From a virus: DNA of 25,641 nt. Each line of letters starts with the position of its first letter. Positions within the stretch are counted from its first letter, which is position 1. The DNA is taken from IMG/VR virus record IMGVR_UViG_3300047668_002652, positions 1-25,641 of that record; one strand, written 5' to 3'. Under the pieces are notes generated by a model, which saw nothing but the letters and a program-made list of their open reading frames with translations, searched no databases and was not told the origin of the DNA. Shown here piece after piece: positions 1-18,204 of this stretch. A program made the translations under genes and the position numbers.

Positions 1-3000
1 AAGCCCGCAAAAGACGACCTATCTTCAGCATTTATTTTTTCTATTATGTTCGGGTGAGTGCTGTCCCATACTGTATAGTCTTTATTCCCAGCAGCCCTTT
101 CTATAAATTTTGCACTAAAACCTATCCCACCACTTTCTGCATAAATATTCTTTAATTTTGATTGATCAACGAAAGGTTTATTACCAAAGTAAGCGTTTTC
201 TAGAATTTCCCTTGGTGAATTATCAAAGGCAGTTGTGACTGCGGGGGCAAAATTAGGAGCAAAACCACCGGCCTTAGAGTGACCTTGTATAGTTTTTGAG
301 TTTCTTGTTGCATTCTTAATCCCTTCTGGATGATCACGTTTTACTGCAGAGAAGTTATTTTGGGTATTTCCGTCCCTAACGTATGTACCGACCTGTTTAT
401 TATAATCAACTACAGGCCTTCCGCCTAGAGCTCTTTCGGTCTTTATAGCTCTAGAAACCCCTTCGCCAATAGGAGAAAAAGACGGAACAAAACCAGTAGC
501 GGCTCCTCCTATTGGCGCAATCGTTATTTTTTCCACAGCTCTTTCTAGAGCGCTAGCAGCTTTTGACAGAGAATCCGCTGAACCGCTAAAATTTGAACCT
601 TTTAGTGAACCAATTAACGCTTCATTTAATTTCTGCTGGTGCTCAGCATTTTTTTGAGAATTTTTTTCATTAGTTTCGGAAAGACTTTGAATGCTTTTGC
701 TTAATTCATCCGGATTCAAGCTTTTGTTTACTGCCTCGGCAATTTCTGGTCCTATGTTTAAGGACTCTGCAATTGAAGAGCCTATTACTTCGGCCATTTT
801 TGAAGCTAGTAAGCTAATGCTATCTTCTTTTATTTCTATTAATTGAGCCGCTTTTACTTCTTTTTCTCCTTTCACCCCTCCTTCTTCTCGTCTAGCTAGT
901 GCGTCTTGGAGAGATTTTAGTGCTGCTCTGAAAAATTTAGACCTATCAGCAGAAAGACCTTTAGTGCCTCCTGCTCGGACCAGCTTACTAATCTCTATTC
1001 TTAATTCTTCCAGCGAACCTCCTCCTATTTCCTTACCGGTAATTCCCGAAAAAGCAGCTCTAAGATTTTCCAACTCACTAGCTTTAGCTTTAATCTCGGT
1101 TAGCTCTGCTAATATATCCTGATCAGCGCCTATAGAAATTAAAGTAGCTATACCGTTATTCATTTCAGTAATTTTTTCCAATGAAGTCTTTGCGGTTGTC
1201 CCGTCTTCTTTTAAAATCTTATCAAAGTTTTTGAAAACGTTTATTTGCTGTTCGCTAAACTGTGTGTTCCTTAAGGTCGCTATCTGCTGACTTTTTAAAG
1301 CTGCTAATTGAGCTCTAGCGCTAGCTTCTGCCATTTTTTGGCTTGCCACTTGAGTTGCGTTTATAGCTCTTAGTTTTTGCAAAGCTTCTAGCGCTACCTT
1401 TTTTTCTTCTGGGCTGCCTGTCTTCTGAACTTGAAGTAGCGCCGTTAAAGCTTCTTTGCTAGAAACGTTTCCTCCTTTAACCCCCTCTATCAAAGTCTTC
1501 ATACCTCCCGACAAGACGGTGCCTGACTCTTTGTTAGCTTTGATTAAATCAGATGCAAAAGACCTAAGAACCTTTTTTGTTTCTTGCGTTGATTTTAATA
1601 AATCGTTTTGTATTTTTGCTGCGGAAGTTCCTTTTATTGAATTTTCTTGAGTAACTGTACCGGTAGCTTGCTGCCTTTCTGATCTTGACTTAACATCTAT
1701 TTGACCGATATTATACAAAGCATTAAAAGCTCTATCAGAACTTTGTCCTGCAATTTCTAATGCGGTGCCCAGTTCATTTATTTTTTTACTTAAGTTTACT
1801 ACCGGATTTTGAGCTGCTTTAAAAGCGTTCTTTGCTGTTATTATTGCGCTAGAGTAATTTGATGAGGCTTGCACTTGCTTAATAATGCCTTGAGTTATAC
1901 TTTCGTTATTACGAATCCAACTCCTAGTTGGAGCGTCAAACTCCCCTAAGATATCCTGCAGCCCTAATAATGCACGAGAAGCGCTATTTGAGGAAGGGTC
2001 GAAATCTTTCAGTGATTTAGATAGCTTTTTAATCTTATCGTCTGAAAGTCCGGACGTTAATAAGTCGGACATTGATTTTATCTCATCGGTAAACTGACTT
2101 ACGTCAACGCCTTTTCCTACATCAAAAATGCCAAGAAATTGTTTACTGTCAAGCTCTTCATTGAATTTTTTAACAACGCCCGCAAAGTCATTCGAGAAAG
2201 TTTTTAAATTCTTTCCTTGTTCGGCCAGACTTTTAAATGTTTTTATAGACTCATTAAATTTATCAGTATCTCCAATACTATTTATTAAATCCTCAAAAGC
2301 TTTTGGATTAAGTGATCGTATACTCTTTGCTTGCTCAAAAATATTTTGCAATATTTTTCCAGAAGCTTCAATATCGCCTTTGCCTGTTGCGGCGCTAAAT
2401 TTAGCTGCTGAAGTTGCGAATTTATCCAAGCTCTCTATGTTTTGGCTAATTATATTTATAGACTTCTCTCTTGTAGCTATTTCTAACTCTAAAGCTTTTA
2501 TATTATTAACTTCCGCATCATATAAATTTCGGTATATGTCGTAAGCAATGCCGGCAGCAACACCAACTACCGCTAAGGCTTTACCCACTATGCCTAATTT
2601 ACCGATTAAATCTGGAAATACAGCGGCAAGTCCAGAGATGCCTGCTACGGTAGATTGCGTTCCTGTAGCGCTAACACCCATCGTGGAAGTTAATGTAGAT
2701 AAGGCGAATTCTAACGCAAAAACTTTACCTAGCAAACCATCAGACGATTTAGTTTGTTTTGATAGTGCGCCTGCTGTTTTTGACGCCGCCTTTCCAAGCT
2801 TTTTGGTCTCATTTGCCATCTCTTTGAATTTAGGAGACTGAAAATTAGTTTGCTGAATACCTCCTCCTGATATATAATTAGGAACATATCCTCCGGACAT
2901 TCCTTTTCCGTGATTTTTTGGATTCAAGCCTGTTGATATAGCTCTATCAACTCCCTGTGAACCGTTTAAAGGTTCGTCTCTGGTGTTAGCTACCAATAAC

Positions 3001-6000
3001 CCCATTGGGTTTTTAGACCCCTTCAGTCTTTTGTCTTGGTCTACATATACTTTTGCACCAGAACCCTGATCTGAAAGCACGCTTTTTTCACGAACTATAG
3101 ACTCCTCTAATGAATTAGCAAAATTAGGTACAAAGCCAGAAGAGGCGATAGCCATACCTTGATCCTTATCAGCGAATGAGCTTTTATTCAAAATAGCAAC
3201 CTCGTCCTCAAATGCAAATTTTTTAAATAAATCAGTATCAAGCCATCTTTTCATGTGAAAACCTATAGGCTTTTTTCTCGCTTGGTTGGCGAACCATTGT
3301 ACTGACTTAGCTTCGCTCCAATCCCTTCTTTTCATTAAGAAATTTACTAATTTATCAACCTTCCTAGGATTGTACATCCTTTTATGACTCATGCTTGTTT
3401 TTCCTATAAAACCCTGCTTAGATGGGTCTTTTGTAGTTGCAAAATCTCTAGCTGTTTTAATATTTGTCGAAGAAGATATTAAAGATGATGTTTTTTCATT
3501 CTCTACGTGAGATCGCAAATAGTCATGAAGAGTATTAAGATCATAGACGTCACTAGCTTTAAACTTTCTGGATCTACGGGGATCAGATTTGTATATATCC
3601 TTAGACTTCAAATTTGATCCTTTCGGCGCCTTTACTCCTCTAAATAAGTCCATAAAATTAGGAACATGGCCAGAAGCGAAACCTCTCTTAAAAAATGGCA
3701 AACCTTCAAGTTCTACCATTCTCTTTTCATTAGGGTCAACTCCTAAAGTCTTCAAGCTACTGATTAATTCTTGCTCTTCTCCAGATAAATATTCGCTTCC
3801 ATCGGCAGTTATGTCATCCTTATAGGAATCCAACTTCATCATTAAACCTGAAGGGTTAAAGGTTCCTTTGATTCTTGTTAATGGTGGCGATTTCTTAGTC
3901 TTTCTCGTTCTGTCTAATAACTGCTTTCCCTTAACAAGCACAGATGGTATTCTTGGCCCAACCACCGTTCCCGCGTCTATGTCAGAATATGGCCTTCCAC
4001 TTTTGTCTGCATTTATTAATGTTTTTAAAATGTTCCTAAAAATTCCTGCTCCTTCTCCGGCAAACCCCCTGATATATTGCACATCAAGAGTTCTTCTCCC
4101 CTTAATCGTCTTATCTTTTATCATACTATCTCGCCCAAAACCTTTTAACTTTTCCGCGTAATTAGGGGTGAATCCACTAGCTGCTGGAATTGTCTCGTCC
4201 GAGATCCCTTCAGATCTTTTAAGAATATCTTTGTTAAATATAGCAGACTCCTCTGAGCCAGCAGCCCCCTCTATTTCATTCGCGAAATTTGGCACATACC
4301 CTCCTGCTCGAGCAGGAATAAACCCAGAAGCCCTTCCTCCAGTCGGCTCTCTTATGAATTTTTTCATAAAGCTTAATTTATTACCAGTCCCACCTAAGGT
4401 AGTCTTAATGTCTCCAAATTTAGCTTGCTTTAACCCAAGCACCTCCTGCTCTTTTTGCGTAATGTTGTATAAATCCCAATTATCATTATCAAGCCTAGAG
4501 TGGTATGTCATTTCTTGATTATAAGCCTTAAGGCCGCTATTTAAAAGTTCTTCAAAAATTCTACCAGTAGAAGTTGACTTGCTTCCTTTGTTGTAAGCTT
4601 CTATCTGCTTGATATAATAATCTTTATTATTATCTAATATTTTTGAATAATTATTCCTCCAGTTGTCGTCTATTTTTGCGGATGTTTTTGGAAATATATC
4701 TTTATCACTGTTAAGTATATCCCCTATGTTTATATTACCTTTTCCTGTTTTTGGGATATTTTTTCCTAAATACTGCTTAATTCTTTCTTGAATTTCTCTA
4801 AATCCTATTTCAGTGCTGTTGGCCTCCGGCGGTCTTATCGAAACTGAATCGAACCCATAATGCGGCTCCTTTATGTAATTTTTAAGTTTTGGCCGTACTA
4901 TTGACTTGCCTTTTTCTTTGCCTAGATTTTCTATTTTAGAGCTCCAGTCTGGAGTTTTTCTTGAACTATTACTATAAATATAAGCGGCTGCATTACCAAC
5001 TATACCATACTCTTTACTCTTCGACTTAAAGTCTCCTTCTGTTATACTCGGATAATGCGTCCTACCAAAATTAGTTCTTGCGTCCTTATCTCTTGCAAAG
5101 TTATTGTTTATTACGTTTCTGTACTTTTCGTTTCTTAAATTTTTTATTAAATGAGGAAGTAATTTTTTCTTAGGAAACTGTTTTTTAAAATCTTTTTTAT
5201 CTTGATCGCTCCTTCTTGTTATGTTTAAAATATCAGAAACGTTAAATTGTGACCCTGTTTCAGGTTGAGATTTCATAGCTGCCTTAGACAGCCCATTATT
5301 GTCTTGAAAGACATAATTTGGAATAAATCCTTCTGACCTTGCAGCGACAGAACCTTGCCCCTTCTTTCTCTCTTTAGACCTCTCTCCCTTGGTCATTTTA
5401 TTTCCCGCTTCAAAAAATGGTCTCCAGTGCTGTTCGTAAATACTCTCTAAAGGTTCCTTGAAGTGGTTTTTATGACTTTTTTGAACTACCTCTCTAAGTG
5501 ATTGCGCTCCGCCAGATCTTTTCGCATCGCCTTTTGATATGCCATATCCTTGAAAAAATATATCTTGCATGTCCTTGGTGATTGGACCGCTTTCTTCAAA
5601 ATCCCAAATACCGTCATGCTTGTCTCTCCCTAGGCTCTTCGCGGACTCTAAACTCCCAAGTCTTAATGCGGATTCGAATATACCTCCCTCGACTGACGGA
5701 GAAACTATAGATTGATCAACGTTTGCCTTATCTCTTACTTGATTGACTAACCCTTTTCCCACTTCGTCCCCAAGTATTCCATTGTAAATTCTGGAAGCTA
5801 CAGAAGCTACGGCATTTGCTATATTAGGCTGTATTATATCGTTTATCGCTCCAGCTTTTCCTTCTACTTTGCTCGACACTTCAGGGCTTGACATTTCCGT
5901 TATAGAGGATGTTCCAATATTACTAAATGTAGTTCTCTTTCTTGCTATTACTGTTGAAATAAATTTTTTATCGTCTTTAGTCAACTTGGATCCTGATATT

Positions 6001-8126
6001 TTTTCAATAATTGAATTATTCTCTACAGGGGTAAATGCTGAGATCTGCTTTAACGAGGAAGACTGCCTACCCCTGACCCCTTTTGCAGAAAGCATTCCAA
6101 AGCCTCCTAATTGTCTCTCTACATCAATATCAAGACCGTCTTGAGACGTTAAAAACTGTTTATACTTCTTGTCTTTTTCTAAACTTGAAGCGAAGTTAGG
6201 TATATATCCACTAGCCACTGGAATCGCTCCGTCTGGAACTCCTCCAGATTTTTTAATCATATTCTTATTAAATATAGCAGAACCGCTACTACCCCCAAAT
6301 TTAGGGACTATTACTTCATCTGTGTTTGCTACTATAGTTTGATTTCTTCCTCCCCCCATTGGGAAGTTTTTTAATACTTTCGGCTTGGCTGATCTAGAAG
6401 CTCCTCCCTCTCCAGCAGATATTGCAGCTCTTTCTGAACTTATAGCTCCCTCTATTCCGTTTGCAAAATTTGGCACATACCCTCTTGATCGAGCAGGAAT
6501 AAACCCAGAAGCTTTTGCTGTTGAGCTTACAGCGGCTCCAATTGCGCGGGAACTTGATATTCTAGAAATTAATTTTTGCTGTAGCGCATAAGCGTTGTTT
6601 TGTTGTTTAATGGTTTGCAAAACCAACTCTTCTTTCTGCTCGTGACTAAGCGCCGAATTAGATATGGCCTCATATAAACTTTTGTTATTCTTCAACAGAA
6701 AGCCGATCTTAGCTTCAGTTTCTGCTATTTTATTAGTAGCGCTGCCAATTTTAAATATTTCCTTTACTGCTTTTAAGCTTTGTCCGGTAATAAATTTAAA
6801 GAGCTTAACAAAAGCTACACCAATTAAAATCAATCCGGGTCCAGATATAAAACCTCCAATAGCCTTGAACATTCCCTGCATTAATTTACTGCCTTTTTCT
6901 GGGTCTAAAGCTTGCCCCAAAGCCCCTGATATCGAATTAAATAAATTCAATAAATTCTCTATAGCTGGTGTCGCTATTAAACTTCCTAAAGTTGACGCTA
7001 ATTCCTTAGCGCTGACCGCAGCTTCGTTAATAAGAGTTGATAAAGTGCCTTGAAGCTTTTCATTTCTTCTGACAGCTTCGTCAGTTGCGCTATTTGATTG
7101 GGTTAGAGCTCGTTCGTATATACTATAATCACTTCCTAAATCCTTAACCAATGCTTTAAGGTTATTGATTTGAAAAACACCAGCTATCAATTCGTCTGTG
7201 AAAGCTTTTTGAGAGTCCGTTAAAGACCCGTAAACCCCTGAGTAATCTTTCAGAATGTCTAAGGCTCCCCTGATATTGCCAGCAGCATCAGTCGTAGCCA
7301 CTCCAATCTCCTCAAGAGCTTCTCTTACGCCTCCTCTTTGTAGTCGCGTAAAGATACTCTTAAATGCATTGCCTATAACAGCTCCTCCTCTAGCAGTTGT
7401 TTGCTGCACACTCGTAACGGCTGCGAGTAATTGATCTAAATCTACTTTTGCTGACTGTGCGGTTGCTCCGGCTCTAGCAAGGCCATTAGCCAAGTCTTCG
7501 GTACTTACGGCAAACGCAGCATCAACAGTGGCTAGTTTATTCACTATTTCAGTCGTCGTGATTGCGGTATCTCCAAAACTATTTACTGCAGCGGTTAAAG
7601 TTTCTACTGATTTGGCAGCCTCCATACCTGACAATCTAGTCAATATCATTGCGTCATTAATCCTGCCTAACGTCTCTTCTGCCCCCAAGCCCTGTCTAGA
7701 TAGTTCAACAGCAGCCTCAGCTACGGTTTGAAAACTTTGCCCCGTATTCTTTGCTGTATCAAAAAGCTTCGAAGAGAAATCTGCCAAGCTTGAGGCGTTA
7801 AGGTTTAAAATAACATTAATATCAGTAAGAGCTTTCTCGACCTCTACAGCGCTTGAGATCATGGCTTTAAAACCCTGCGTTACGGCATTAAGGACTCCAA
7901 CCGCAGCTCCGAAGGCTAAAGTACGAGCTACAGATGCATCCAGAGACTTTTGGAATTCTGCTATATCACCTGATATTCTCCCTAATGGCTGCCTAAACCC
8001 CTTATCATTAAGGGAGACCGACATTGGACGTATCTTCTTCTCGGCGGTGCGAACCTGCCGTACAATATCATCTGTTAGGCCGCTAGCGCCTACATTGATT
8101 TGAATATTTCCACTTCCTAATGCCAT
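1..8126 (-). CDS. Phage tail tape measure protein, TP901 type, with embedded enzyme-like cassettes (C-terminus beyond left edge)
   Basis: One frame stays open from ATG 8126 to the left edge, at least 2708 codons; the C-terminus is not seen. Residues about 70-400 look like the TP901/PhageMin_Tail core: helical, Ala-rich, with segments such as SRQGLGAEE and TARGGAVIGNAFKSIFTRL. Hydrophobic segments lie near 425-447 and 1835-1870, as is usual in tape measure proteins, which fix tail length and are ejected before the DNA. Residues about 1870-2540 are mainly charged helical, coiled-coil-like sequence. Between about 540 and 1750, and after 2548, ten G-aromatic-x-P-N-F/Y motifs punctuate non-tape segments, including nuclease-like and ADP-ribosyltransferase-like domains listed separately. 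AAGGAA six bases upstream is a fair ribosome binding site. Tape measure identity is strong from sequence, size and gene order; cargo function is inferred. Confidence 0.93.
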   Translation of the reverse strand, partial: MALGSGNIQINVGASGLTDDIVRQVRTAEKKIRPMSVSLNDKGFRQPLGRISGDIAEFQKSLDASVARTLAFGAAVGVLNAVTQGFKAMISSAVEVEKALTDINVILNLNASSLADFSSKLFDTAKNTGQSFQTVAEAAVELSRQGLGAEETLGRINDAMILTRLSGMEAAKSVETLTAAVNSFGDTAITTTEIVNKLATVDAAFAVSTEDLANGLARAGATAQSAKVDLDQLLAAVTSVQQTTARGGAVIGNAFKSIFTRLQRGGVREALEEIGVATTDAAGNIRGALDILKDYSGVYGSLTDSQKAFTDELIAGVFQINNLKALVKDLGSDYSIYERALTQSNSATDEAVRRNEKLQGTLSTLINEAAVSAKELASTLGSLIATPAIENLLNLFNSISGALGQALDPEKGSKLMQGMFKAIGGFISGPGLILIGVAFVKLFKFITGQSLKAVKEIFKIGSATNKIAETEAKIGFLLKNNKSLYEAISNSALSHEQKEELVLQTIKQQNNAYALQQKLISRISSSRAIGAAVSSTAKASGFIPARSRGYVPNFANGIEGAISSERAAISAGEGGASRSAKPKVLKNFPMGGGRNQTIVANTDEVIVPKFGGSSGSAIFNKNMIKKSGGVPDGAIPVASGYIPNFASSLEKDKKYKQFLTSQDGLDIDVERQLGGFGMLSAKGVRGRQSSSLKQISAFTPVENNSIIEKISGSKLTKDDKKFISTVIARKRTTFSNIGTSSITEMSSPEVSSKVEGKAGAINDIIQPNIANAVASVASRIYNGILGDEVGKGLVNQVRDKANVDQSIVSPSVEGGIFESALRLGSLESAKSLGRDKHDGIWDFEESGPITKDMQDIFFQGYGISKGDAKRSGGAQSLREVVQKSHKNHFKEPLESIYEQHWRPFFEAGNKMTKGERSKERKKGQGSVAARSEGFIPNYVFQDNNGLSKAAMKSQPETGSQFNVSDILNITRRSDQDKKDFKKQFPKKKLLPHLIKNLRNEKYRNVINNNFARDKDARTNFGRTHYPSITEGDFKSKSKEYGIVGNAAAYIYSNSSRKTPDWSSKIENLGKEKGKSIVRPKLKNYIKEPHYGFDSVSIRPPEANSTEIGFREIQERIKQYLGKNIPKTGKGNINIGDILNSDKDIFPKTSAKIDDNWRNNYSKILDNNKDYYIKQIEAYNKGSKSTSTGRIFEELLNSGLKAYNQEMTYHSRLDNDNWDLYNITQKEQEVLGLKQAKFGDIKTTLGGTGNKLSFMKKFIREPTGGRASGFIPARAGGYVPNFANEIEGAAGSEESAIFNKDILKRSEGISDETIPAASGFTPNYAEKLKGFGRDSMIKDKTIKGRRTLDVQYIRGFAGEGAGIFRNILKTLINADKSGRPYSDIDAGTVVGPRIPSVLVKGKQLLDRTRKTKKSPPLTRIKGTFNPSGLMMKLDSYKDDITADGSEYLSGEEQELISSLKTLGVDPNEKRMVELEGLPFFKRGFASGHVPNFMDLFRGVKAPKGSNLKSKDIYKSDPRRSRKFKASDVYDLNTLHDYLRSHVENEKTSSLISSSTNIKTARDFATTKDPSKQGFIGKTSMSHKRMYNPRKVDKLVNFLMKRRDWSEAKSVQWFANQARKKPIGFHMKRWLDTDLFKKFAFEDEVAILNKSSFADKDQGMAIASSGFVPNFANSLEESIVREKSVLSDQGSGAKVYVDQDKRLKGSKNPMGLLVANTRDEPLNGSQGVDRAISTGLNPKNHGKGMSGGYVPNYISGGGIQQTNFQSPKFKEMANETKKLGKAASKTAGALSKQTKSSDGLLGKVFALEFALSTLTSTMGVSATGTQSTVAGISGLAAVFPDLIGKLGIVGKALAVVGVAAGIAYDIYRNLYDAEVNNIKALELEIATREKSINIISQNIESLDKFATSAAKFSAATGKGDIEASGKILQNIFEQAKSIRSLNPKAFEDLINSIGDTDKFNESIKTFKSLAEQGKNLKTFSNDFAGVVKKFNEELDSKQFLGIFDVGKGVDVSQFTDEIKSMSDLLTSGLSDDKIKKLSKSLKDFDPSSNSASRALLGLQDILGEFDAPTRSWIRNNESITQGIIKQVQASSNYSSAIITAKNAFKAAQNPVVNLSKKINELGTALEIAGQSSDRAFNALYNIGQIDVKSRSERQQATGTVTQENSIKGTSAAKIQNDLLKSTQETKKVLRSFASDLIKANKESGTVLSGGMKTLIEGVKGGNVSSKEALTALLQVQKTGSPEEKKVALEALQKLRAINATQVASQKMAEASARAQLAALKSQQIATLRNTQFSEQQINVFKNFDKILKEDGTTAKTSLEKITEMNNGIATLISIGADQDILAELTEIKAKASELENLRAAFSGITGKEIGGGSLEELRIEISKLVRAGGTKGLSADRSKFFRAALKSLQDALARREEGGVKGEKEVKAAQLIEIKEDSISLLASKMAEVIGSSIAESLNIGPEIAEAVNKSLNPDELSKSIQSLSETNEKNSQKNAEHQQKLNEALIGSLKGSNFSGSADSLSKAASALERAVEKITIAPIGGAATGFVPSFSPIGEGVSRAIKTERALGGRPVVDYNKQVGTYVRDGNTQNNFSAVKRDHPEGIKNATRNSKTIQGHSKAGGFAPNFAPAVTTAFDNSPREILENAYFGNKPFVDQSKLKNIYAESGGIGFSAKFIERAAGNKDYTVWDSTHPNIIEKINAEDRSSFAG
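3192..3662 (-). other. ADP-ribosyltransferase-like segment inside the tape measure protein
   Basis: The segment starts directly at the linker motif SGHVPNF (Pro 1489) and ends about 20 residues before the next linker (Pro 1667). It contains MDLFRGV (R1496), then SLISSSTNIKTARDFA (Ser 1551-1553, Thr 1554), then FAFEDEVAIL (E1640-x-E1642). R, then an S-T-S-like strand followed by A-x-x-FA, then E-x-E near the C-terminus is the R-S-E signature of mono-ADP-ribosyltransferases. R to S is about 55 residues and S to E about 89, within the range I expect for the fold. Known phage ADP-ribosyltransferases such as T4 Alt are virion proteins injected with the DNA. Activity and substrate here are unknown. 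Confidence 0.55.
3912..4082 (-). other. Unassigned globular segment, weakly acetyltransferase-like, inside the tape measure protein
   Basis: Residues about 1349-1405, between linker motifs at 1321 and 1489, contain YIRGFAGEGAGIFRNILKTL, then DIDAGTVVGPRIP, then KGKQLLDR. A basic residue followed by a Gly-rich turn (R1353 to G1361), a helix, a strand and another helix recalls the acetyl-CoA binding loop region of GNAT acetyltransferases. The match is short and the Gly spacing is not canonical. The strongly patterned GTVVGPRIP stretch indicates a real folded domain rather than tape-like coiled coil. Confidence 0.3.
4263..4331. repeat. Direct DNA repeat copy 2 (pairs with 6444-6512)
   Basis: This is the second copy of the 69-base repeat, encoding ASGFIPAR-AG-GYVPNFA and IEGA. 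It is followed almost at once by the SAIFNK segment that also follows copy 1. In copy 1 the two blocks are separated by about 50 extra residues (roughly 565-615), so the two copies differ by an internal insertion or deletion. Confidence 0.9.
4389..4574 (-). other. PD-(D/E)XK nuclease-like segment B inside the tape measure protein
   Basis: Residues about 1185-1246 read TGRIFEELLNSG (E1192), then NDNWDLYNI (D1218), then KFGDIKTT (D1239-x-K1241). The spacing is 26 and 21 residues, close to segment A. Both copies share a G-x-IFE-x-x-L start, a W-D-aromatic or aliphatic centre and a G-D-x-K end, but little else, so they are divergent paralogues or independently acquired relatives. The segment lies between linker motifs at residues 936 and 1279, at the C-terminal end of a cassette of about 340 residues whose first part I do not recognise. 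Confidence 0.6.
5512..5693 (-). other. PD-(D/E)XK nuclease-like segment A inside the tape measure protein
   Basis: Residues about 812-872 read GGIFESALRL (E818), then HDGIWDFEES (D842), then SKGDAKRSGG (D867-x-K869). A Glu in a helix after IFE, an Asp after a hydrophobic strand, and a D-x-K about 25 residues later is the order of catalytic residues in the PD-(D/E)XK restriction-endonuclease-like fold. The E-to-D and D-to-DxK distances are 24 and 25 residues. The segment lies between linker motifs at residues 643 and 936. A second copy in the same protein has the same signature, which makes chance less likely. Fold and activity are inferred from motifs only. Confidence 0.55.
6444..6512. repeat. 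Direct DNA repeat copy 1 (pairs with 4263-4331)
   Basis: This 69-base stretch matches 4263-4331 at a constant offset of 2181 bases (727 codons, so in frame), with seven mismatches that I count, about 90% identity. It encodes the double linker ASGFIPAR-SR-GYVPNFA plus the following IEGA segment. Such identity inside one gene, flanked by unrelated sequence, points to a recent duplication or to gene conversion. Confidence 0.9.
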
Positions 8127-8157: not shown

Positions 8158-9150
8158 TTATGAAAAATTTTGAAAATCTTCTATAGTGAGAGAGCCTTTT
8201 TTCTTTGCTAGCTCAAATGGACTAATGTCTGTTTCGTTTGAAACCCCCATTTCCCCCATGTCTTTTTTGGTAGCGCCCATAACACTGAACCCCTGCTTAT
8301 CCTTGCTTCTTTCCCTTACTTCCTTATTCTTGCTTTGAGATTCTGCGAATGATAATAATTCATCAGGATCTTGCTTTATATTTTCTGGAACATTTTCTAC
8401 ATTCTCAATTATAGAATTTAATATTTTAGCGTAATTCAATAAATTTAATTGATAATAAGATAATGAATATATATTTTCATCAAAGAACTTATATAAATTT
8501 TCTTGCCCCAATACATTATAATATATAGAGAAAACATTACTTATCGATAAATACTTGATATTATCTATTGAAAGATGCTCGGTATTCTGCATATACCCCG
8601 TAAACATTGCCTGAAGCTCTCTTTTTGGGACTTCACAGAATTCATCCCAAGTAAAGTAAGCTTTATTTAAATTTTTATTTTTATAAAAACTCAAATATAT
8701 ACTATAGTCGTTATTTTTATTCGAAGCGTAGCTTTCGCATGTAGAGGTAAACAAAGAGCCTCTCTTAGATAGTAATACATTTAGACTTTCCTCAGCCTTA
8801 CTAATGTCTTTATTTATTACCTCTATTTGGCTTGGAATTATTAAATTCTTTTTTGTTTCCTTCAGGTTAGTTGAATAAATCTTCAATTCGTCAATCTCTC
8901 CCTCTTCTTTATTAGACCATATACCCTCCCTAATCAAAAGCTCTAAAGTTTCCTTCTCTGTGGGTAAGCCATTTTTTTTAGCTTTTTCAAAAACTTCTTC
9001 ATAATTGCCCTCAAGCAAGCATTGATCGTTGTTAGAAAAATGCTTGACAAAAACAGTCCTTTCGTTTAAGTGGATTTTTGTATATCCATCCACAATTTCA
9101 GATAGAACCTTTCTTAAGGCTGTATCTTCTGGCGCGGTTTTCTTTTCCAT
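8158..9150 (-). CDS. Tail assembly protein of unknown fold, upstream of tape measure
   Basis: This 330-residue protein sits 31 bases before the tape measure gene and 16 bases after the previous gene, the position usually held by the second tail assembly chaperone. I recognise no domain. It is charged and helical. Residues about 100-135 are Lys/Glu-rich, the middle is rich in Asn and Tyr (ISNVFSIYYNVLGQENLYKF), and the last 60 residues are hydrophilic. The start ATG 9150 has no good ribosome binding site (AGCAACAGGCGCA precedes it), so translation may be coupled to the upstream stop. Phage tail chaperones are often made by a programmed frameshift, but the frame relation here does not support one at the visible junction. 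A structural role is inferred from position only. Confidence 0.7.
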   Translation of the reverse strand: MEKKTAPEDTALRKVLSEIVDGYTKIHLNERTVFVKHFSNNDQCLLEGNYEEVFEKAKKNGLPTEKETLELLIREGIWSNKEEGEIDELKIYSTNLKETKKNLIIPSQIEVINKDISKAEESLNVLLSKRGSLFTSTCESYASNKNNDYSIYLSFYKNKNLNKAYFTWDEFCEVPKRELQAMFTGYMQNTEHLSIDNIKYLSISNVFSIYYNVLGQENLYKFFDENIYSLSYYQLNLLNYAKILNSIIENVENVPENIKQDPDELLSFAESQSKNKEVRERSKDKQGFSVMGATKKDMGEMGVSNETDISPFELAKKKGSLTIEDFQNFS

Positions 9151-9166
9151 TGCGCCTGTTGCTTAT

Positions 9167-9315
9167 TTACCCCTTCTTAGCCTCTTCCTTTGGTTCTGCC
9201 TTAGCCTCTTCCTTTGGTTCTGCCTTAGCCTCTGCCTTAGGTTCTTCCTTAGGTTCTTCCTTAGGTTCTTCCTTAGGTTCTTCCTTAGGTTCTTCCTTAG
9301 GTTCTTCCTTTAAGT
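9167..9315. repeat. 12-bp tandem repeat encoding K-E-E-P units
   Basis: On the plus strand the unit is close to ggttcttcctta. It is nearly perfect across about 9239-9310, then degenerates toward 9170 with GCC-containing variants. Translated on the minus strand it gives six KEEP units, then about five KxEA/KxEP units. It produces long spurious open frames on the plus strand. Copy number is likely to vary between relatives by slippage. Confidence 0.9.
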
Positions 9316-10126
9316 CTGTTTCTTCGCTCATCTCTTTAAGCACTGCATCAAAGTCATCTTGCTCTTGGACTCCGCTCATGTACCATATAGTAGCTATCGT
9401 ACTAAGCCTGTCTATTGAGTTAATAAAAATATCATCTTGATCCTCGTCCGCTTCCTGATAAGACAAATATTTTTCTTCATAATCTGAACCCGGAAATAAC
9501 GGGACTTCTTCAGCATCATCGCTATCCCCCTTGATGTAATAAGCTAAATGAAGGAGAAACCATGTTATGGTTTTATTTCTTGCCTTAACGTCTGCGGTAT
9601 GATCAAAAATAGAAGCTTGAGCAGCCTCGAAATCAGCGAGCTGTTTTCTGATTACAGCCAAGTCTGAAATTGATTTCTCAAGTCTCTCGGATTCATCATT
9701 ACTCATTGCGTCTCTATCTTTTGAGCTATACCTAATTACATTTTGCTGCTTTTCGAATAATTGCAGATATAGTTTAGCAAAGTTCATTTTATCGTCTTCA
9801 TTTAAAGATCCGCCGATATCTACTTGTTTTTTTGCTAACATTGCTCTTGTAAGCAATCCCATTTTTATAAATTTATTTAACCATATACTGTAAAACATAT
9901 CGCCGTCTTCTACTTGAGTTCTAGTAGGCTTTTTTAGAAAAACCTTTACTGGCGTTTTCTCCACGGTAGTCTTTATAACTGTCTCTTCTACCTTCTCAAT
10001 TTTTCCGGTTTCTTTGTTTTTCTTTTCTACTTCCTTTATCACTTCTTTTTCGATCTCGTTTTCGATATCAATACTAAAATTATAAAGTTCTCTTTTTTTC
10101 TTTTCCTTTGTTTTCTTTTCTTTCAT
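9167..10126 (-). CDS. Probable tail assembly chaperone with acidic-basic tetrapeptide tail
   Basis: This 319-residue protein has three visible parts. Residues 1-60 are very Lys/Glu-rich. Residues about 60-260 are helical and probably globular, with FYSIWLNKFIKMGLLTRAML and a heptad-like region near 120-160. Residues about 273-319 are a run of four-residue units, mostly KEEP, then KAEA/KAEP/KEEA variants. An FYSIWLNK-like motif followed by a Leu-rich helix, with the position before the tape measure, resembles first tail assembly chaperones, which coat the tape measure during tail building. The start has AAGGAAAAGGAA just upstream, a good site. The stop TAA is 16 bases before the next ATG. Family membership is inferred. 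Confidence 0.75.
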   Translation of the reverse strand: MKEKKTKEKKKRELYNFSIDIENEIEKEVIKEVEKKNKETGKIEKVEETVIKTTVEKTPVKVFLKKPTRTQVEDGDMFYSIWLNKFIKMGLLTRAMLAKKQVDIGGSLNEDDKMNFAKLYLQLFEKQQNVIRYSSKDRDAMSNDESERLEKSISDLAVIRKQLADFEAAQASIFDHTADVKARNKTITWFLLHLAYYIKGDSDDAEEVPLFPGSDYEEKYLSYQEADEDQDDIFINSIDRLSTIATIWYMSGVQEQDDFDAVLKEMSEETDLKEEPKEEPKEEPKEEPKEEPKEEPKAEAKAEPKEEAKAEPKEEAKKG

Positions 10127-10136
10127 TTCCTTTTCC

Positions 10137-10424
10137 TTATTTAATTGTTAAATTAAATTGATCTAATTGACCAATTATTTCGCGTAAAGCGTCGTTTCCA
10201 TTGTCCAGTATTTTCTTCCTCAAGAATTCCATCCTCGATTCGTCCCAATAATCTGCCTGATTAATTAGCTCAACATTATTCGGTAATGCATGTTTTAATT
10301 TTGCATAATTACTTCGATGTTGATCGTGCATATCTTCCATTATAATTAGAAATGATTTATATAAATTTATAACATTTCTATTTACCTGAAAGCCCAATAA
10401 TTCCTTTAACTTACCTTGATCCAT
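10137..10424 (-). CDS. Small conserved-looking protein of unknown function, tail module
   Basis: A 95-residue protein, predicted mostly helical, with NVINLYKSFLIIMEDMHDQH and a charged C-terminal half (DESRMEFLRKKILDN). It lies 10 bases before the next gene and 34 bases after the last tail-tube-like gene. I recognise no family. Its place between tail tube proteins and tail assembly proteins suggests a small tail assembly factor, but nothing in the sequence proves it. No convincing Shine-Dalgarno site precedes ATG 10424; the leader is A/T-rich. Confidence 0.65.
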   Translation of the reverse strand: MDQGKLKELLGFQVNRNVINLYKSFLIIMEDMHDQHRSNYAKLKHALPNNVELINQADYWDESRMEFLRKKILDNGNDALREIIGQLDQFNLTIK

Positions 10425-10458
10425 AACATATATTATGAATACTTGGCGACTTTTTCAA

Positions 10459-11241
10459 TTATAGATATTGAATAATTGAAGCCGAGTTGATTTCGTCTTG
10501 CTCAGAGGATACCGTAGAGGTTCTTTCTTGCATGTGTCCGAAAATGCTTAACGATCCTAAACTTTGATCGTCACAGCCAAATGCTGATATAGTATAGTTT
10601 TTAGGAGGCAAGACGCAAGAATCAGTTGATGTCATTAATTGCCCAGCTAAACCTTCTCCTTCGACATTAATGGTTATTTGGCCTTCTGAGAATATGATAG
10701 TAGGAACTACCTCTCCTAGTAAATGATACTCTTTATAAGATTGAGAGAATGACCAGTCAACCGAACTAATGTTTTCTAAATTCCCAATATTACTAAATCC
10801 TCCTAGAACTATATTTTCTGAAGTAATTGGATTCAACACCGGGCTAGAGGGTGCAGGGGAAGCTCCCACAAACAAGCTGCCAAAATATTCGAAAGACCTT
10901 GATACCGTAATAGGCTCTCCAACCTTTATACTTACCGACATGCTGGTCATTATGGATGGAGATGGAGCCGAATATGGGCCAAATTGAACAGATACATCTT
11001 GATCATTATTGCCTTTCAATGTATTGAAAATACTCAAATCAGTCGTTAGATATGAATCAATATTAATTTGCCCTTTTGGCACTTCTGTATTAAAGACTGC
11101 GCTAGACCCTTTTACACCTAGCGATAAAGCAGTTTGTAAATTTAACCCTTCAGAGAGATTAACTGAATTACCGTATACCTCATCAGCAGAAGAGTCTCCA
11201 TATGTAATTATGACTGGAAAGTTTTTATAACAATTACTCAT
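10459..11241 (-). CDS. Tail-tube-like protein, paralogue 4
   Basis: A Ser/Thr-rich, beta-type protein of about 260 residues. It is a clear paralogue of the preceding gene: both contain P-x-G-x-x-x-ID-x-Y-x-TT near residue 60, GP followed by a LMTS-like SVSI strand near residue 100, SFSQSY/F near 170, and an ER-x-[ST]-x(3)-S-E strand near the end. I take ATG 11241 as the start because it overlaps the upstream TGA (ATGA) and has GAGGA eight bases before it. A TTG two codons earlier would sit directly on that ribosome binding site. Its role is probably a minor or alternative tail tube component, inferred from paralogy and position. Confidence 0.75.
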   Translation of the reverse strand: MSNCYKNFPVIITYGDSSADEVYGNSVNLSEGLNLQTALSLGVKGSSAVFNTEVPKGQINIDSYLTTDLSIFNTLKGNNDQDVSVQFGPYSAPSPSIMTSMSVSIKVGEPITVSRSFEYFGSLFVGASPAPSSPVLNPITSENIVLGGFSNIGNLENISSVDWSFSQSYKEYHLLGEVVPTIIFSEGQITINVEGEGLAGQLMTSTDSCVLPPKNYTISAFGCDDQSLGSLSIFGHMQERTSTVSSEQDEINSASIIQYL

Positions 11242-12056
11242 GGACAATCCTCATCTTTTACGTACTTCTGCGTTATGGTAATACTCTCAATAACCTCCGA
11301 ACCCGGAGCGGTGGAGATAGAGCGCTCTGTTAAATACCCCGACATAGGTAGATCGCTTACGTGATTGCCGCATAAATTATATAAATTAACCTCCGCAATT
11401 CTTGCCGTAAGCCCGGTCTGCCCGTCCTGAGAGAGACATAGCCCTGATGATCCAGTCATAGCAGTCTTATCAAAGTCAATGTCTGACATTAAAACTTCTA
11501 ATGATAAATCTTGAGAGCCTCCATTAAATACAACCTTACTTGGCTGCTCCCCTGATATAGAGTAATTAACATCAAATGACTGACTAAAAGAATAGCTAAA
11601 ATTTAAAAATCTACTAACCCCCAACGAATCTAATTGTCCGCTAGAGGAAGCTCCGTGAGCAGGAATAATTGTTACGTCGCTCTTTGAAGGGCTACCGCCG
11701 CTGGTCATTTGTCCGTAATAATTGTATGTGGCCGAACCTTTTATTATAGAAGAAGGATCTCCATTTACCGAAAAAGAAGTAAGTAAAGCTTTTTTCATGA
11801 TGAATGGTCCGGCCCTTACTTCACTAAAGGCTGCAGATCCATAGCTATTCTTTATATTACTAATCTCATTGCCGGTAGTTATATAAAAATCAATAGAAAA
11901 GGTTCCCTCTGGAGGGGCTGAAGCTATAACGCCTTGTGATTTCGTTCCGAGTGCGCTAAAATATTCTAAATCTATACTTTCTGATATGGATATTGATTCT
12001 GCAAAATAGTCTTGACTGCCCACCGAAGCCTTCATATTCTTAAATTGAACGCTCAT
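11238..12056 (-). CDS. Tail-tube-like protein, paralogue 3
   Basis: A 272-residue beta-rich protein with many alternating Ser and hydrophobic residues (SISISESIDLEYF, FSYSFSQSFDVNYSISGE). It is paralogous to the following gene along the whole length and more distantly to the two preceding ones. AGGAGC lies nine bases before the ATG, and the gene overlaps the upstream gene by ATGA, so the pair is probably translationally coupled. The N-terminus begins with a short strand-rich segment instead of a signal peptide, in line with an intracellularly assembled virion protein. Tail tube or tube-decorating function is inferred. Confidence 0.75.
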   Translation of the reverse strand: MSVQFKNMKASVGSQDYFAESISISESIDLEYFSALGTKSQGVIASAPPEGTFSIDFYITTGNEISNIKNSYGSAAFSEVRAGPFIMKKALLTSFSVNGDPSSIIKGSATYNYYGQMTSGGSPSKSDVTIIPAHGASSSGQLDSLGVSRFLNFSYSFSQSFDVNYSISGEQPSKVVFNGGSQDLSLEVLMSDIDFDKTAMTGSSGLCLSQDGQTGLTARIAEVNLYNLCGNHVSDLPMSGYLTERSISTAPGSEVIESITITQKYVKDEDCP

Positions 12057-12910
12057 GAGAACACTGCTCCTAAATCTTCAATTTCACTATAATTACTTTC
12101 ATAGGATATGCTCGCTGTCATATTTGATCCTATTGATGCCGAAACGCTAGAATCTTTAATTTTTGAATCAGCTAATGTAAAAGTTTGTATAGTTACATTT
12201 TCGCAGGTTTTCAATTCTATCGATAAATCATCAATAAAGTCATTAGAACAAATCGCGTCAAGTAAATTTTTACTTTCATAATCATTCACCAACATATCAA
12301 AAGATGTTGTTATCTTAATAGGCGTACTTAAATTAAACTGACTAGGAATAAACATATCACCCATTTTGTATACCGGGTCTCTATCTATAGACAAACTTAA
12401 ACTATAAGACTGTATTCCGTTAGTAGACCCAAACGGAGTGGTTAAAATAATAGAGTTAGCGATTGCTGGGGTTGCACTTATATTAGTATAACTTCTCGAT
12501 TCACTGTTGATCTTCCCAACCCCCCCATAAGCGCTCATTGAAAAATCAGCAGTAGCAATTTCACCTATAGAGCAAGAAGAGTCATAACCATTAATGTAAG
12601 ACTTTTTAAAATTAAATACTTTATCAAATGATTCATTTTTACCATATATTAAATATCCATCAATAGATGAATTAAATAATAATGTAATTGGATCATTTTG
12701 TTCTACTATTAATCGATTAACAGAAATCTCACCAACCAAAGACCCTTCTATTTCGCTACCCACAAATTCGTACCCAGCAGCTAACATATCAGAATTCGGT
12801 ATAGACCAACTACCATCAAAAGACTGAACTCCCTTGACCTCGCTCGCCGTAGAGCCTTCCTCGCCAATAAAAACTTGATGATCTGAATAATAATTTCTTC
12901 CGTAAGCCAT
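12053..12910 (-). CDS. Tail-tube-like protein, paralogue 2
   Basis: A 285-residue beta-rich protein. Its C-terminal half aligns by eye with the preceding gene: SLSL/S-x-D-R-x-P-x-x-[IM]-G-[DN]-[MV]-F, then an ICS-x(5)-D strand, then [FY]-T-[LM]-x-[DS]-x-[KQ], then a S-[AS]-[ST]-IG-x-N/D strand. The first gene of the group is the likely major tail tube protein, so this is probably a second tube subunit or a neck/tail-tip tube variant. It is the first gene after the terminator at 12932-12960 and must be read by readthrough or from an unseen promoter. The ATG has only a weak AGGT upstream. Confidence 0.75.
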   Translation of the reverse strand: MAYGRNYYSDHQVFIGEEGSTASEVKGVQSFDGSWSIPNSDMLAAGYEFVGSEIEGSLVGEISVNRLIVEQNDPITLLFNSSIDGYLIYGKNESFDKVFNFKKSYINGYDSSCSIGEIATADFSMSAYGGVGKINSESRSYTNISATPAIANSIILTTPFGSTNGIQSYSLSLSIDRDPVYKMGDMFIPSQFNLSTPIKITTSFDMLVNDYESKNLLDAICSNDFIDDLSIELKTCENVTIQTFTLADSKIKDSSVSASIGSNMTASISYESNYSEIEDLGAVFS

Positions 12911-12931
12911 ACCTATATGGTATTACACAAA

Positions 12932-12960
12932 AAAGCCTCTGAGTAGAACCCAGAGGCTTT
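12932..12960 (-). terminator. Rho-independent terminator after the major tail tube gene
   Basis: A perfect 10-base-pair stem (12932-12941 with 12951-12960, AAAGCCTCTG on the minus-strand side) encloses a 9-base loop. It is followed on the minus strand by a T run. It lies 31 bases after the stop of the major tail tube gene, so it probably ends or attenuates that transcript. Confidence 0.9.
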
Positions 12961-12991
12961 TAAAGTTATAATGATTTACTTAGCTGTTGTC

Positions 12992-14080
12992 TCAAGTTGT
13001 TCCAGAAATGAATACTCCATTACCGGTATCACTTGGACCACCAATTTGAGTACTGAAGGTTAGATCTACAGATTTATTATCTCCAATTGTGGAGCTCATG
13101 TTCTGTGAGTCTAATTGAGCAGACTTCATTGTGTAAACTACGCTAGTCCCTCCTCCGCAACGATTATTCATTGTGATTGTGATGTCACGAGTAGAAGCCT
13201 CTGAGCAAATAAGCTCTTGTAAAGTTCCTGATGAAAGATCTGTTAAGTTAGCGGATACGCTTAATGTCGCATTGATTGGAAAGTCAAGCTCTCTTGAGAA
13301 TGGGAAAACATTCCCGATTCTATTCAAAGGAGTCCTGCTTAAAGGCAAGTCAAGGCTAAAGTTTTGAACGTTTGCTGTGGATTTTCCAACAGCTGTCATT
13401 CCGGGCAAAATAGCTCCACCCATTTGAAGATTACTAGCTCCAAAGTTAATAGTAACATCTCCGGGGCGAAGCGCTGCAGCTGATAAAACTCCCGTGGTAG
13501 ACACTGGAATATTTACCGTACCTCCTAATGGAGTACCATCTTCAACGTCAATTGCTGGATTTGGAATTCCGCTACTTGCTGTATCAAAACGAAGATTTGA
13601 AGCTTCCACAGAAACGCTAGCAGAAGGAATGTCTCCAACCGAAGCTGTCATTCCGTAACTAGTAATGTAACCGTTACCTATTCCGATAGCTCCGTTAGTA
13701 GTTCCAGCTCCATAGTTAGCAGTTCCATTAGAAGCGTCTTCGCCTTCAGGAACTGTTAATATGAAATAATTTTTCTCAGCTTCAACAGTGTTTTCTTTCA
13801 TAATTCCTGAAAGAGCACTGGTTGATCCATCAATAGTAAAACCTAAGTTTTTTTCATTTATTCCATCTACTACAAAGTAGGTGAAATCTAAGCTTACTGT
13901 GGGGGATTCAATTACTTCGCGACTTAAAGCTGCTAATTTACCGAACTCGTTTACATCAGTCCTTGTTACCTCAACAGAATGAGATACGTCTTGGATACGA
14001 TGTAACTGAGTTGGCGCTGCGACTCCAGTCTTCCCTGCGTAGAGGGCTTCACTTTGATATATAATACGTTTTCTAGCCAT
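12992..14080 (-). CDS. Probable major tail tube protein
   Basis: A 362-residue beta-rich protein with a stretch typical of phage major tail proteins: an N-terminal strand-rich domain (LHRIQDVSHSVEVTRTDV), a Ser/Thr-rich middle with an immunoglobulin-like feel (about 165-215), and a C-terminal half shared with the next gene. It has its own terminator just downstream and a 58-base intergenic leader upstream, and its codon choice looks more balanced than its neighbours. All of this fits a highly expressed virion protein. It stands between neck genes and tail assembly genes, the usual place of the tail tube. No signal peptide is seen. The start has no clear Shine-Dalgarno site but an A/T-rich leader. 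Confidence 0.82.
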   Translation of the reverse strand: MARKRIIYQSEALYAGKTGVAAPTQLHRIQDVSHSVEVTRTDVNEFGKLAALSREVIESPTVSLDFTYFVVDGINEKNLGFTIDGSTSALSGIMKENTVEAEKNYFILTVPEGEDASNGTANYGAGTTNGAIGIGNGYITSYGMTASVGDIPSASVSVEASNLRFDTASSGIPNPAIDVEDGTPLGGTVNIPVSTTGVLSAAALRPGDVTINFGASNLQMGGAILPGMTAVGKSTANVQNFSLDLPLSRTPLNRIGNVFPFSRELDFPINATLSVSANLTDLSSGTLQELICSEASTRDITITMNNRCGGGTSVVYTMKSAQLDSQNMSSTIGDNKSVDLTFSTQIGGPSDTGNGVFISGTT

Positions 14081-14102
14081 AATAAAGATATTTGTTCATT
14101 TT

Positions 14103-14131
14103 AGTATACAGTTAAAAGCAACAAAAGAGAA
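14103..14131 (-). promoter_or_regulatory. Possible late promoter upstream of the major tail tube gene
   Basis: In the 58-base gap before the tail tube gene the minus strand has TATACT (14103-14108), a good -10 candidate about 20 bases before the start codon. No convincing -35 is present at 16-18 bases (TTCTCT at best). It is offered because the gene also has its own terminator. Confidence 0.3.
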
Positions 14132-14138
14132 CTTTTAT

Positions 14139-15041
14139 TTACAACTCTAGCTTGGGAAGTCTAGGAGTGCTTAATGTAAAATCTACAAATCCAATTCTCA
14201 TGTTCCTAGGTATGTTCATTGCAGAGCTCGATGAGTCATATAATTTCGTACAACTCACCTTGTCTATGAATGCATAATTAGCTCCGCTTATTTTTTCATT
14301 ATAAAGTTTTAGATAGTCATATGGGGGTTCTTTTATATGAAAATACTCACCAAATGGGAACTCTTCAAAATCAATCATAGGCACACAAACTTCAGAAGAG
14401 TCTCTAAATAAAGAAAGAGTAGCGTCTAATGTAAAATTATCATTAGCTATAACTACAGCTCTTAAATTGCTTTTAGTATCCTGCATGCCTCCAAGAGCGA
14501 ATGGTTTATTAGTGCTTGAATTATAGCTTATAAACGCAGCAGGAACAGTGTAATTTAAAGAAGACAGCCCGGTTATTGATTGCAGAAAAGTCTCGTCATT
14601 TTGATCTGCCAAAAGGAAGTCCGAATTAAATAAAAGCTCTTCTTCGCTTTCGTTTGTTATATAACAATTCACTGTCTTTCTGTCAAAATTTCCACTAATC
14701 GCTAAATTAGTTCCAACCGCAGAGTTCATAACAACCCTGCCTTGATCAAAATCAATCATCAATCCAGTTGTGTCAGAAGGGTTTTGGTCTACCAGTGTAT
14801 ATGAGTTTCCAAATGAACCCCCACTAATATAAACTCCAGAAGGAACCCCTGTTCCATTTGCTACGAATTGCCTATCCGGACTATAATATGCTATTTGATT
14901 AATAGGAATATCGACACTATTGCTTGAGTAGTAAAACTGTTGACTAATCCCTGTCTCTGTTGCTTCTGCGTATCTGGTTAGCCTATCATCAAACCACAAA
15001 TAAAAACTACTCAATACCTTATGATCAAATTGCGGCTTCAT
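14139..15041 (-). CDS. Neck or tail-terminator-position structural protein, unknown family
   Basis: A 300-residue protein, mainly beta and rich in Ser, Asn and aromatic residues, with no signal peptide or membrane segment. It begins MKPQFDHKVLSSFYLWFDDRL and ends in a strand-like IGFVDFTLSTPRLPKL. I do not recognise the fold. It overlaps the upstream gene by ATGA and lies just before the major tail tube gene, where tail terminator or tail completion proteins usually sit. It is longer than typical tail terminators (about 130-180 residues), so it may instead be a larger neck protein. Virion association is inferred from gene order. Confidence 0.7.
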   Translation of the reverse strand: MKPQFDHKVLSSFYLWFDDRLTRYAEATETGISQQFYYSSNSVDIPINQIAYYSPDRQFVANGTGVPSGVYISGGSFGNSYTLVDQNPSDTTGLMIDFDQGRVVMNSAVGTNLAISGNFDRKTVNCYITNESEEELLFNSDFLLADQNDETFLQSITGLSSLNYTVPAAFISYNSSTNKPFALGGMQDTKSNLRAVVIANDNFTLDATLSLFRDSSEVCVPMIDFEEFPFGEYFHIKEPPYDYLKLYNEKISGANYAFIDKVSCTKLYDSSSSAMNIPRNMRIGFVDFTLSTPRLPKLEL

Positions 15042-15643
15042 AATCTTTTTAAGCTTGATTCGATATTTCTAAGCATTTCATCTAAAATTCTCGTCATGTA
15101 TTCTGCCGGATTAGAATTCATTTGTTGGCTACTAAGCTCTCCGTCTATTTGTACCGCACTGCCAGATCTACCTTTCTTATGATTTTTAGTATACAGATAC
15201 TGTCCTAATCCGCTAAGACCTCGCTCCACAGCATCTACCCAATTGTCAGTAGACCAAGGCATTGGAGCTATTGCTTTTATCTGCTCTATAGTAGGCACTG
15301 AAAAACTTAACGTAAAGGCTAGGATATTTCTTTTTTTTCTTATCGTCCTGATCTGTATGGATTTAGCAAGCAAACTCCTTAAAGGGGAGATTGGGTCGCT
15401 GCCAGATTCAAACCCTATAAAGGTAAATAAATTACCATACCCTCCTAGAGTATTAGAGGAGTTTGAAGCGCTAGGACCACCATCTATTTCTTTAGTAATC
15501 TCATGACTCTCGAAACTTTTTAATAGTTGTTGTCTTTCTTTATCAAACGCGCTCCTTATTCTTTGCTCTACTAAAGGTTTAAATATTTTATATCCTTTTT
15601 GCGCTATTTCGGCATTAAGCCCTCTCATGTTAATTCTAGCCAT
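15038..15643 (-). CDS. Head-tail joining protein, HK97 gp10-like position
   Basis: A 201-residue protein starting with an amphipathic helix rich in Lys/Arg (about 12-45), then a Gly/Asn-rich turn (TLGGYGNLFTFIGFESG, about 65-81), then mixed strands and a C-terminal helix. An N-terminal helix followed by strands, placed third after the capsid gene, fits the gp10-like neck/tail-completion group. Its start is preceded by AAGGAGGT eight bases upstream, the strongest ribosome binding site in the window. That site is embedded in the last codons (Arg-Arg) of the previous gene, whose stop overlaps the start as TAATG. Confidence 0.7.
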   Translation of the reverse strand: MARINMRGLNAEIAQKGYKIFKPLVEQRIRSAFDKERQQLLKSFESHEITKEIDGGPSASNSSNTLGGYGNLFTFIGFESGSDPISPLRSLLAKSIQIRTIRKKRNILAFTLSFSVPTIEQIKAIAPMPWSTDNWVDAVERGLSGLGQYLYTKNHKKGRSGSAVQIDGELSSQQMNSNPAEYMTRILDEMLRNIESSLKRL

Positions 15644-16562: not shown

Positions 16563-16563
16563 T

Positions 16564-16953: not shown

Positions 16954-16978
16954 AATAATAATTGATTAGTAATACTAT

Positions 16979-17006
16979 ATTATAACTGCATATACACAAA
17001 AATCAA
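16979..17006 (-). promoter_or_regulatory. Sigma70-like promoter for the neck gene operon
   Basis: On the minus strand TTGATT (17001-17006) and a perfect TATAAT (16979-16984) are separated by 16 bases. The site lies just after the capsid-gene terminator and about 26 bases before the ATG of the SAP-like gene. Position and consensus quality both support a real promoter. Confidence 0.8.
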
Positions 17007-17021
17007 CTTTCAGAGAATAAA

Positions 17022-17049: not shown

Positions 17050-17071
17050 AATAAGTGATCTGATCTTATAA

Positions 17072-18187: not shown

Positions 18188-18204
18188 AATATTTTTTCTA
18201 TAAA

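Follow-up and report, generated by a model that had tools for sequence, protein, structure and literature searches.

Polymorphic toxin systems combine a conserved delivery scaffold with toxin-like domains that are swapped, and a conserved motif marks the border. Polyvalent proteins of phages and conjugative elements combine several enzymes in one polypeptide, and Iyer et al. 2017 (PMC5512222) predict that they pass into the host together with the DNA; that description does not mention tape measure proteins. Tape measure proteins themselves leave the tail lumen before the DNA (summarised in PMC11126660 and PMC13277306). The tail of mycobacteriophage TM4 becomes ∼20 nm shorter when an enzyme domain of 114 residues is deleted from its tape measure protein, which matches the prediction of 0.15 nm per residue (PMC1796659), and in the injection system protein Tme a C-terminal endonuclease has been shown (PMC11126660). 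Here we analysed one IMG/VR virus record of 25,641 bases (the window), whose tape measure protein carries an array of segments bordered by a repeated motif, together with relatives of this protein in IMG/VR. We regard it as likely that this tape measure protein, with its conserved scaffold and exchangeable array of enzymes, is a polyvalent modular cargo carrier.

The tape measure gene of the window

The initial annotation called the gene a tape measure protein, and profile searches agree: the largest ORF of the window matches PF10145 (E 8e-28, 98.1 bits against a curated cut-off of 33.2) and many tape measure PHROGs, which identify it as a tape measure protein (Table 1). Its N-core is 38–72% identical to the N-cores of 34 relatives. 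The ORF lies on the same strand as the paralogous tube-like and small genes that precede it, and from their position these genes may have tube and chaperone roles. Two adjacent proteins encoded at 10459–12056 (−) are paralogous (27% identity, E 1e-12) and are probably tail tube proteins; the products of 12053–12910 and 12992–14080 resemble this pair by eye. The protein encoded at 9167–10126 occupies the usual place of the tail assembly chaperones and bears an (EEPK)n tail that stems from ∼10.7 copies of a 12-base unit at 9183–9310. The stretch at 24961–25641 (−), immediately upstream of the gene for the terminase large subunit, encodes the C-terminal portion of a subtilase (PF00082, E 2e-20). 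It shows a stalk of Thr/Pro repeats and a hydrophobic anchor at the C-terminus, and the subtilase is a candidate processing protease. Apart from the terminase and the protease, nearly all structural proteins of window positions 8158–23031 are without a PHROG or Pfam match, which points to a lineage without cultured relatives.

Searching the window protein for G[FYHWTV].PN[FYM] returned nine exact motifs (starting at aa 549, 640, 933, 1276, 1318, 1486, 1664, 1746 and 2621), against a mean of 0.004 in shuffled versions of the protein. Together with the variant GFVPSF at aa 2545 these make up the ten motifs that had been read from the sequence in a protein of at least 2708 residues. Eight of the nine exact motifs fall within aa 549–1751, in accordance with the concentration at 540–1750 first described, and the motif region, originally placed at 237–6512, measured 249–6506. 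Two GFIPAR half-motifs stand directly ahead of the motifs at aa 549 and aa 1276, and the DNA of the entry doublet (aa 541–554) is almost identical to that of the doublet at aa 1268–1281, an intragenic duplication. The array of the window is flanked by hydrophobic segments at aa 422–443 and aa 1840–1864. Placement of the array between two membrane segments was considered as a rule for the family and dropped, since it holds in just 29 of 116 relatives by the hydrophobic-segment test.

Table 1. Features of the tape measure gene in window coordinates (aa, residues of the tape measure protein)
Feature	Residues (aa)	Position	Strand	Basis or remark
Tape measure protein ORF	1-2708	3..8126	−	2708 aa; C-terminus beyond the 25,641-base window; PF10145 and eleven tape measure PHROGs
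PhageMin_Tail domain, inside the conserved N-core (aa 1-540)	123-308	7203..7760	−	PF10145 match
Hydrophobic segment preceding the array	422-443	6798..6863	−	Hydrophobic-segment test
GFIPAR + GYVPNFA doublet, array entry motif	541-554	6465..6506	−	Motif search
Short spacer module 1	549-645	6192..6482	−	Cluster 0, 152 members; commonest module type of the family
Motif GYIPNF	640 (start)	6192..6209	−	Motif search
Cassette A	640-938	5313..6209	−	PD-(D/E)XK signature E818, D842, D867xK869, K883
Motif GFIPNY	933 (start)	5313..5330	−	Motif search
Cassette B	933-1281	4284..5330	−	Family of cassette A (GRIFEE..WDL..FGDIK); cluster 1
Shortened spacer module 2 with doublet GFIPAR + GYVPNFA	1268-1323	4158..4325	−	Motifs, clustering, DNA comparison
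Cassette C	1318-1491	3654..4175	−	Alpha/beta domain with IDAGxVVGPRIP block; 7-member family
Cassette D	1486-1669	3120..3671	−	ADP-ribosyltransferase-like FRG..SSST..ARDFA..EDEVAI
Short spacer module 3, array exit	1664-1751	2874..3137	−	Cluster 0
Ruler part	1752-2544	495..2873	−	Common to L092, L138 and L265; hydrophobic segment aa 1840-1864
Short spacer module 4, GFVPSF..GFAPNF	2545-2626	249..494	−	Motifs, clustering
Further C-terminal segment, beginning only	2627-2708	3..248	−	ORF; window end cuts off the rest

Catalytic-residue signatures of two enzyme folds had been proposed for the intervals between motifs, and they fared differently. The PD-(D/E)XK signature in aa 640–938 and 933–1281 is upheld by conservation: cassettes A and B, judged by their residues, have the active-site pattern of this nuclease fold. 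They belong to the commonest cassette family, in which, across 70 sequences, the E is present in 68, the D in 69, and the D or E and the K in all 70, with the acid preceding the K being D in 50 and E in 20; all four positions are carried by 67 of the 70 at a typical identity of ∼18%. By profile, this family aligns with another cassette family over the active-site block (94.5%, E 7e-8). The ADP-ribosyltransferase signature in aa 1486–1669 stands at the level of motifs, with the R, STS, ExE triad visible in the sequence and a weak profile match of cassette D to other ART-like cassettes (E 0.003, probability 11%), so that cassette D can be called ADP-ribosyltransferase-like in a weak sense. This is the signature-bearing interval that had been seen to begin exactly at a motif (GHVPNFMDLFRG), which it does. 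A search of IMG/VR for relatives of cassette D found none.

The initial annotation had counted a prediction of nothing but coiled coil or disorder in all intervals against an enzyme array. AlphaFold2 (AF2) models of cassette A (pLDDT 74.9) and of the alpha/beta cassette C (overall ∼75, mostly ∼70–90 in aa 20–165 of the model) do not give that picture; for cassette D, confidence was mostly below 50. Foldseek matched the cassette C model to no known fold and the cassette A model to no fold in PDB or BFVD, and a profile of cassette A had no match in PDB. Since the AF2 alignment of cassette A was very divergent, the missing Foldseek match is not proof against the fold, and its assignment to the nucleases rests on residue conservation.

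A motif-bordered family of tape measure proteins

The full window protein, searched directly in IMG/VR with patterns that fell in variable parts, had no match. Relatives were then sought with DNA patterns for the motif and with an N-core profile. The DNA pattern for GFVPNFA occurred in at least 119 stretches and that for GYIPNFA in at least 120; among the matches listed, the tape measure N-terminus was present in 131 of 215 motif-bearing ORF pieces, and many of the other pieces were cut off by contig or locus ends. Because selection on the motif had to be avoided, a profile built from 35 N-core sequences was used for retrieval blind to the motif, and it gave at least 564 stretches with a coded relative of the window N-core. 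Related tape measure proteins without the motif had been named beforehand as a refutation of the modular reading; of 80 relatives kept from these stretches, 75 carry the motif, and the other five are two truncated ORFs and three proteins with the variant EIPNFA. Complete motif-bearing ORFs that lack the tape measure N-domain hold one motif copy each, so motif arrays were seen solely in this tape measure family. Three ORFs of ∼1830 aa (in L112, L088 and L024), in which a single GGFVPNFANQ lies towards the C-terminus and the N-core profile does not recognise a tape measure N-domain, possibly represent another tape measure lineage.

Past residue 530, the family contains 740 occurrences of G..PN[FYLMWI], against ∼124 of PN[FYLMWI] in any context expected from composition, and the family consensus is [AS]-x-G-[FY]-[IV]-P-N-F-A. 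The amino acids of the motif are near-invariant. Since synonymous codons there follow background usage, selection acts on the motif peptide, and this codon usage rules out a DNA recombination site as the sole explanation of the motif. Queried by tblastn with two relatives as well as with the window protein and the array of the window, 50,697 phage records returned distant similarity to tape measure N-termini only, and neither cassettes nor matches to two arrays were found in this collection. Family members also occur in a small number of MAG contigs; six were checked, and three of these are labelled Flavobacteriales or Flavobacteriaceae; across 296 genomes from the order of one labelled MAG, that genome alone matched.

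The relatives follow one layout, in which an N-core of ∼540–630 residues leads through an optional entry spacer of ∼84 into the cassettes, an exit spacer and a C part of ∼1100–1500 residues. Each protein holds 0 to ∼7 motif-bounded cassettes of ∼60–400 residues. Across 85 complete genes, array length ranges from 0 to 1809 residues; total length rises with it at about 1:1 (slope 1.1, r 0.62), and the C part varies in length almost independently of the array (r 0.13). The first set of inter-motif segments falls into 82 sequence clusters, 55 of them singletons. Of the places where homology ends, 36% lie no more than 5 residues from a motif (5.7% at random) and 55% no more than 10 residues from one (11% at random), figures that are inflated by the motif's own conservation and come from pairs that are not independent.

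Individual pairs show the exchange at closer range. The DNA of L094 and L202 is 96% identical as far as the first motif, beyond which the cassettes differ; by BLAST, their N-cores are 98.5% identical and their nuclease cassettes 27%. L083 and L202 have N-cores at 68% identity yet a common cassette at 93.6% (BLAST). L014 and L085, at 92% identity as far as residue 1412, have one different cassette beyond it, and the N-cores of the window and its near relative L266 are 80% identical although their arrays differ. The clusters, the common layout, the homology ends and these swaps bear out the modular reading first given to the locus, with the motif bordering exchangeable, domain-sized cassettes. 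Hydrophobic segments number 0.03 per 1000 aa in the cassettes versus 1.43 in the N-core. Cluster medians of cassette dN/dS lie between 0.07 and 0.36 for pairs of at least 60% identity over aligned columns; these medians are rough and single extremes should be ignored, because some of the alignments may be short. The cassettes appear to be under purifying selection.

Breakpoints at motifs, and the intragenic duplication of the window doublet at the DNA level, are also what one would see in a recombination mosaic that has no common delivery function and in which the motif is a tolerated site between spacer modules. To this we give very little credence, as the near-invariant motif amino acids, with synonymous codons varying at background rates, and the selection on the cassettes both stand against it. 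The recombination seam suggested in the initial annotation accordingly stands as a pattern, with breaks at motifs, and falls as a mere seam in the DNA. Because the modules are interchangeable and the same motif stands at each border, the tape measure protein of this family is probably a reloadable carrier of first-strike enzymes.

Enzymes in the array and how they could act

That enzymes are embedded in the tape measure protein, as first proposed from the window alone, is seen most directly in relatives where recognisable cassettes share a polypeptide with PF10145. In L270 the partner is the PF01743 PolyA_pol head (1e-13, 55.4 bits against a cut-off of 23), and since the same cassette also matches solved CCA-adding enzymes in PDB (2e-15), it is by homology a CCA-adding tRNA nucleotidyltransferase. 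Clustering places segment 1540–2062 of L281 with it; both cassettes (L270:13604–15049 and L281) apparently include an HD domain (H..HDxxK by eye). In L344 the partner is GNAT (24.9 bits against 20.7), and a further cassette, searched as a segment, matches SNase above the cut-off (24.8 against 21 bits). From motifs or weak Pfam matches, other cassettes look kinase-like, P-loop, HAD-like or ParB-like. A cassette with a P-loop and a cytidylyltransferase-like region (L344:13124–14617, weak PF01467) may, from these features, act in NAD or nucleotide metabolism. Most of the 130 cassettes scanned had no family match in Pfam, and none had a match in NCBIfam.

The window cassettes without a fold match could instead be structural, that is, degenerate inserts that lengthen the ruler or dock to the tube and whose enzyme likeness is a relic, and the embedded domain of TM4 does count as ruler (PMC1796659). 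We consider this quite improbable: at an identity of ∼18%, the catalytic residues belong to the few positions that stay near-invariant, the cassettes with the CCA enzyme and with GNAT exceed their curated cut-offs, and the array varies from nothing to its full 1809 aa, with different cassettes behind almost identical N-cores. The same TM4 result makes doubtful the earlier expectation that the array does not act as ruler and that the tail is shorter than the protein length predicts. If the TM4 rule is valid here, relatives with the same scaffold and different arrays should differ in tail length.

Another way to account for an identical peptide at each border is a polyprotein, with the motif as the site of the phage's own protease and the cassettes cut out in the producing cell, where they would act unless packaged elsewhere, leaving a tail-bound tape measure protein without cassettes. 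Low AF2 confidence at the cassette ends, the subtilase gene near the terminase gene and the processing proposed for polyvalent proteins (PMC5512222) fit such an arrangement. A late-gene position and fusion to a tail protein are, however, an odd site for producer-directed enzymes, and a search of the literature gave no known site with the motif strings, so that on the whole we hold the polyprotein to be unlikely.

For the cargo carrier, we propose that swappable soluble enzyme cassettes sit within a conserved scaffold of N-core and ruler part, each starting and ending with the peptide A-[AS]-x-G-[FY]-[IV]-P-N-F-A. The tail tube would assemble with the cassettes extended, and, as tape measure biology suggests, the protein would be ejected ahead of the DNA. 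Because a tape measure protein leaves the lumen before the DNA, its embedded soluble enzymes would be some of the earliest molecules to arrive in the host, where the cassettes could refold and act as first-strike enzymes (nucleases, tRNA 3′-end repair, protein modification). The most likely function would be early interference with nucleic acids and proteins of the host or of rivals, together with repair of damage from host defence; with a CCA-adding enzyme, tRNA ends would be restored. As for the motif, it is most likely a flexible peptide that some partner recognises, be it a processing protease, a tail chaperone or the tube wall, and it would also permit cassettes to be swapped by recombination with their neighbours undisturbed.

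Several points weigh against a cargo carrier: folded domains of 150–350 residues would have to unfold to fit the tail lumen, the models of cassettes A and C have no fold match and that of cassette D is of low confidence, most of the scanned cassettes have no Pfam family, and the motif's conservation may partly draw the homology breakpoints, measured on non-independent pairs. In its fullest form, the carrier reading is that throughout an uncultured lineage of tailed phages the tape measure protein serves as a reloadable carrier of multiple enzymes, and that these swappable, motif-delimited enzymes are packed unfolded, are released at G[FY][IV]PNFA after ejection by cleavage or recognition, and vary among close relatives so as to overcome host defences or rivals. 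We offer this fuller version tentatively, as plausible but somewhat short of probable.

If true, infecting phages would hold a modular protein-delivery array inside a structural protein that has been treated mainly as a ruler. With G[FY][IV]PNFA in arrays as a sequence tag, cargo domains can be picked out automatically across hundreds of uncultured viruses. It becomes testable whether cytoplasmic effectors pass through the tail lumen, whether embedded domains act as ruler, and what a phage gains from injecting a CCA-adding enzyme or nucleases. For work on protein delivery, the family would offer a case from nature in which the peptides at the borders allow cargo to be exchanged.

Comparison with known systems

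Already known are polyvalent proteins, the single embedded cell-wall domain of TM4 and the one-domain tape-measure effectors of contractile injection systems. The open-access literature searched contained no case of a phage family with a motif-delimited, exchangeable enzyme array within its tape measure protein. TM4 likewise has an enzyme domain inside its tape measure protein, and that domain helps infection (PMC1796659); in contrast to the family described here, it is one small cell-wall domain (the peptidoglycan hydrolase motif mt3), with no array and no border motif. Tme (PMC11126660) and Sle1 (PMC13277306) are similar in that a tape-measure-like scaffold with an exchangeable functional domain is loaded in a tail-like tube. 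They differ in having a single C-terminal functional domain, with no internal array or repeated motif described for them, and in belonging to bacterial injection systems rather than to infecting phages.

The polymorphic toxins share with this family the conserved scaffold, the swapped domains and the conserved border motif. Whereas they have a single C-terminal toxin tip, the cassettes here are internal and multiple, and whereas a neighbouring immunity gene is typical there, none was identified here in an unsystematic look. Polyvalent proteins resemble the array in carrying several unrelated enzyme domains per polypeptide, and the repertoires have GNAT, Pol-beta type nucleotidyltransferase, ParB-like, kinase-like and ART-like domains in common. 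The zincin-like metallopeptidase, frequent but not obligate in polyvalent proteins, is absent from the Pfam matches of the 130 cassettes. Unlike in polyvalent proteins, the carrier here is a tape measure protein with a ruler part, one fixed motif delimits the cassettes, and nuclease signatures dominate.
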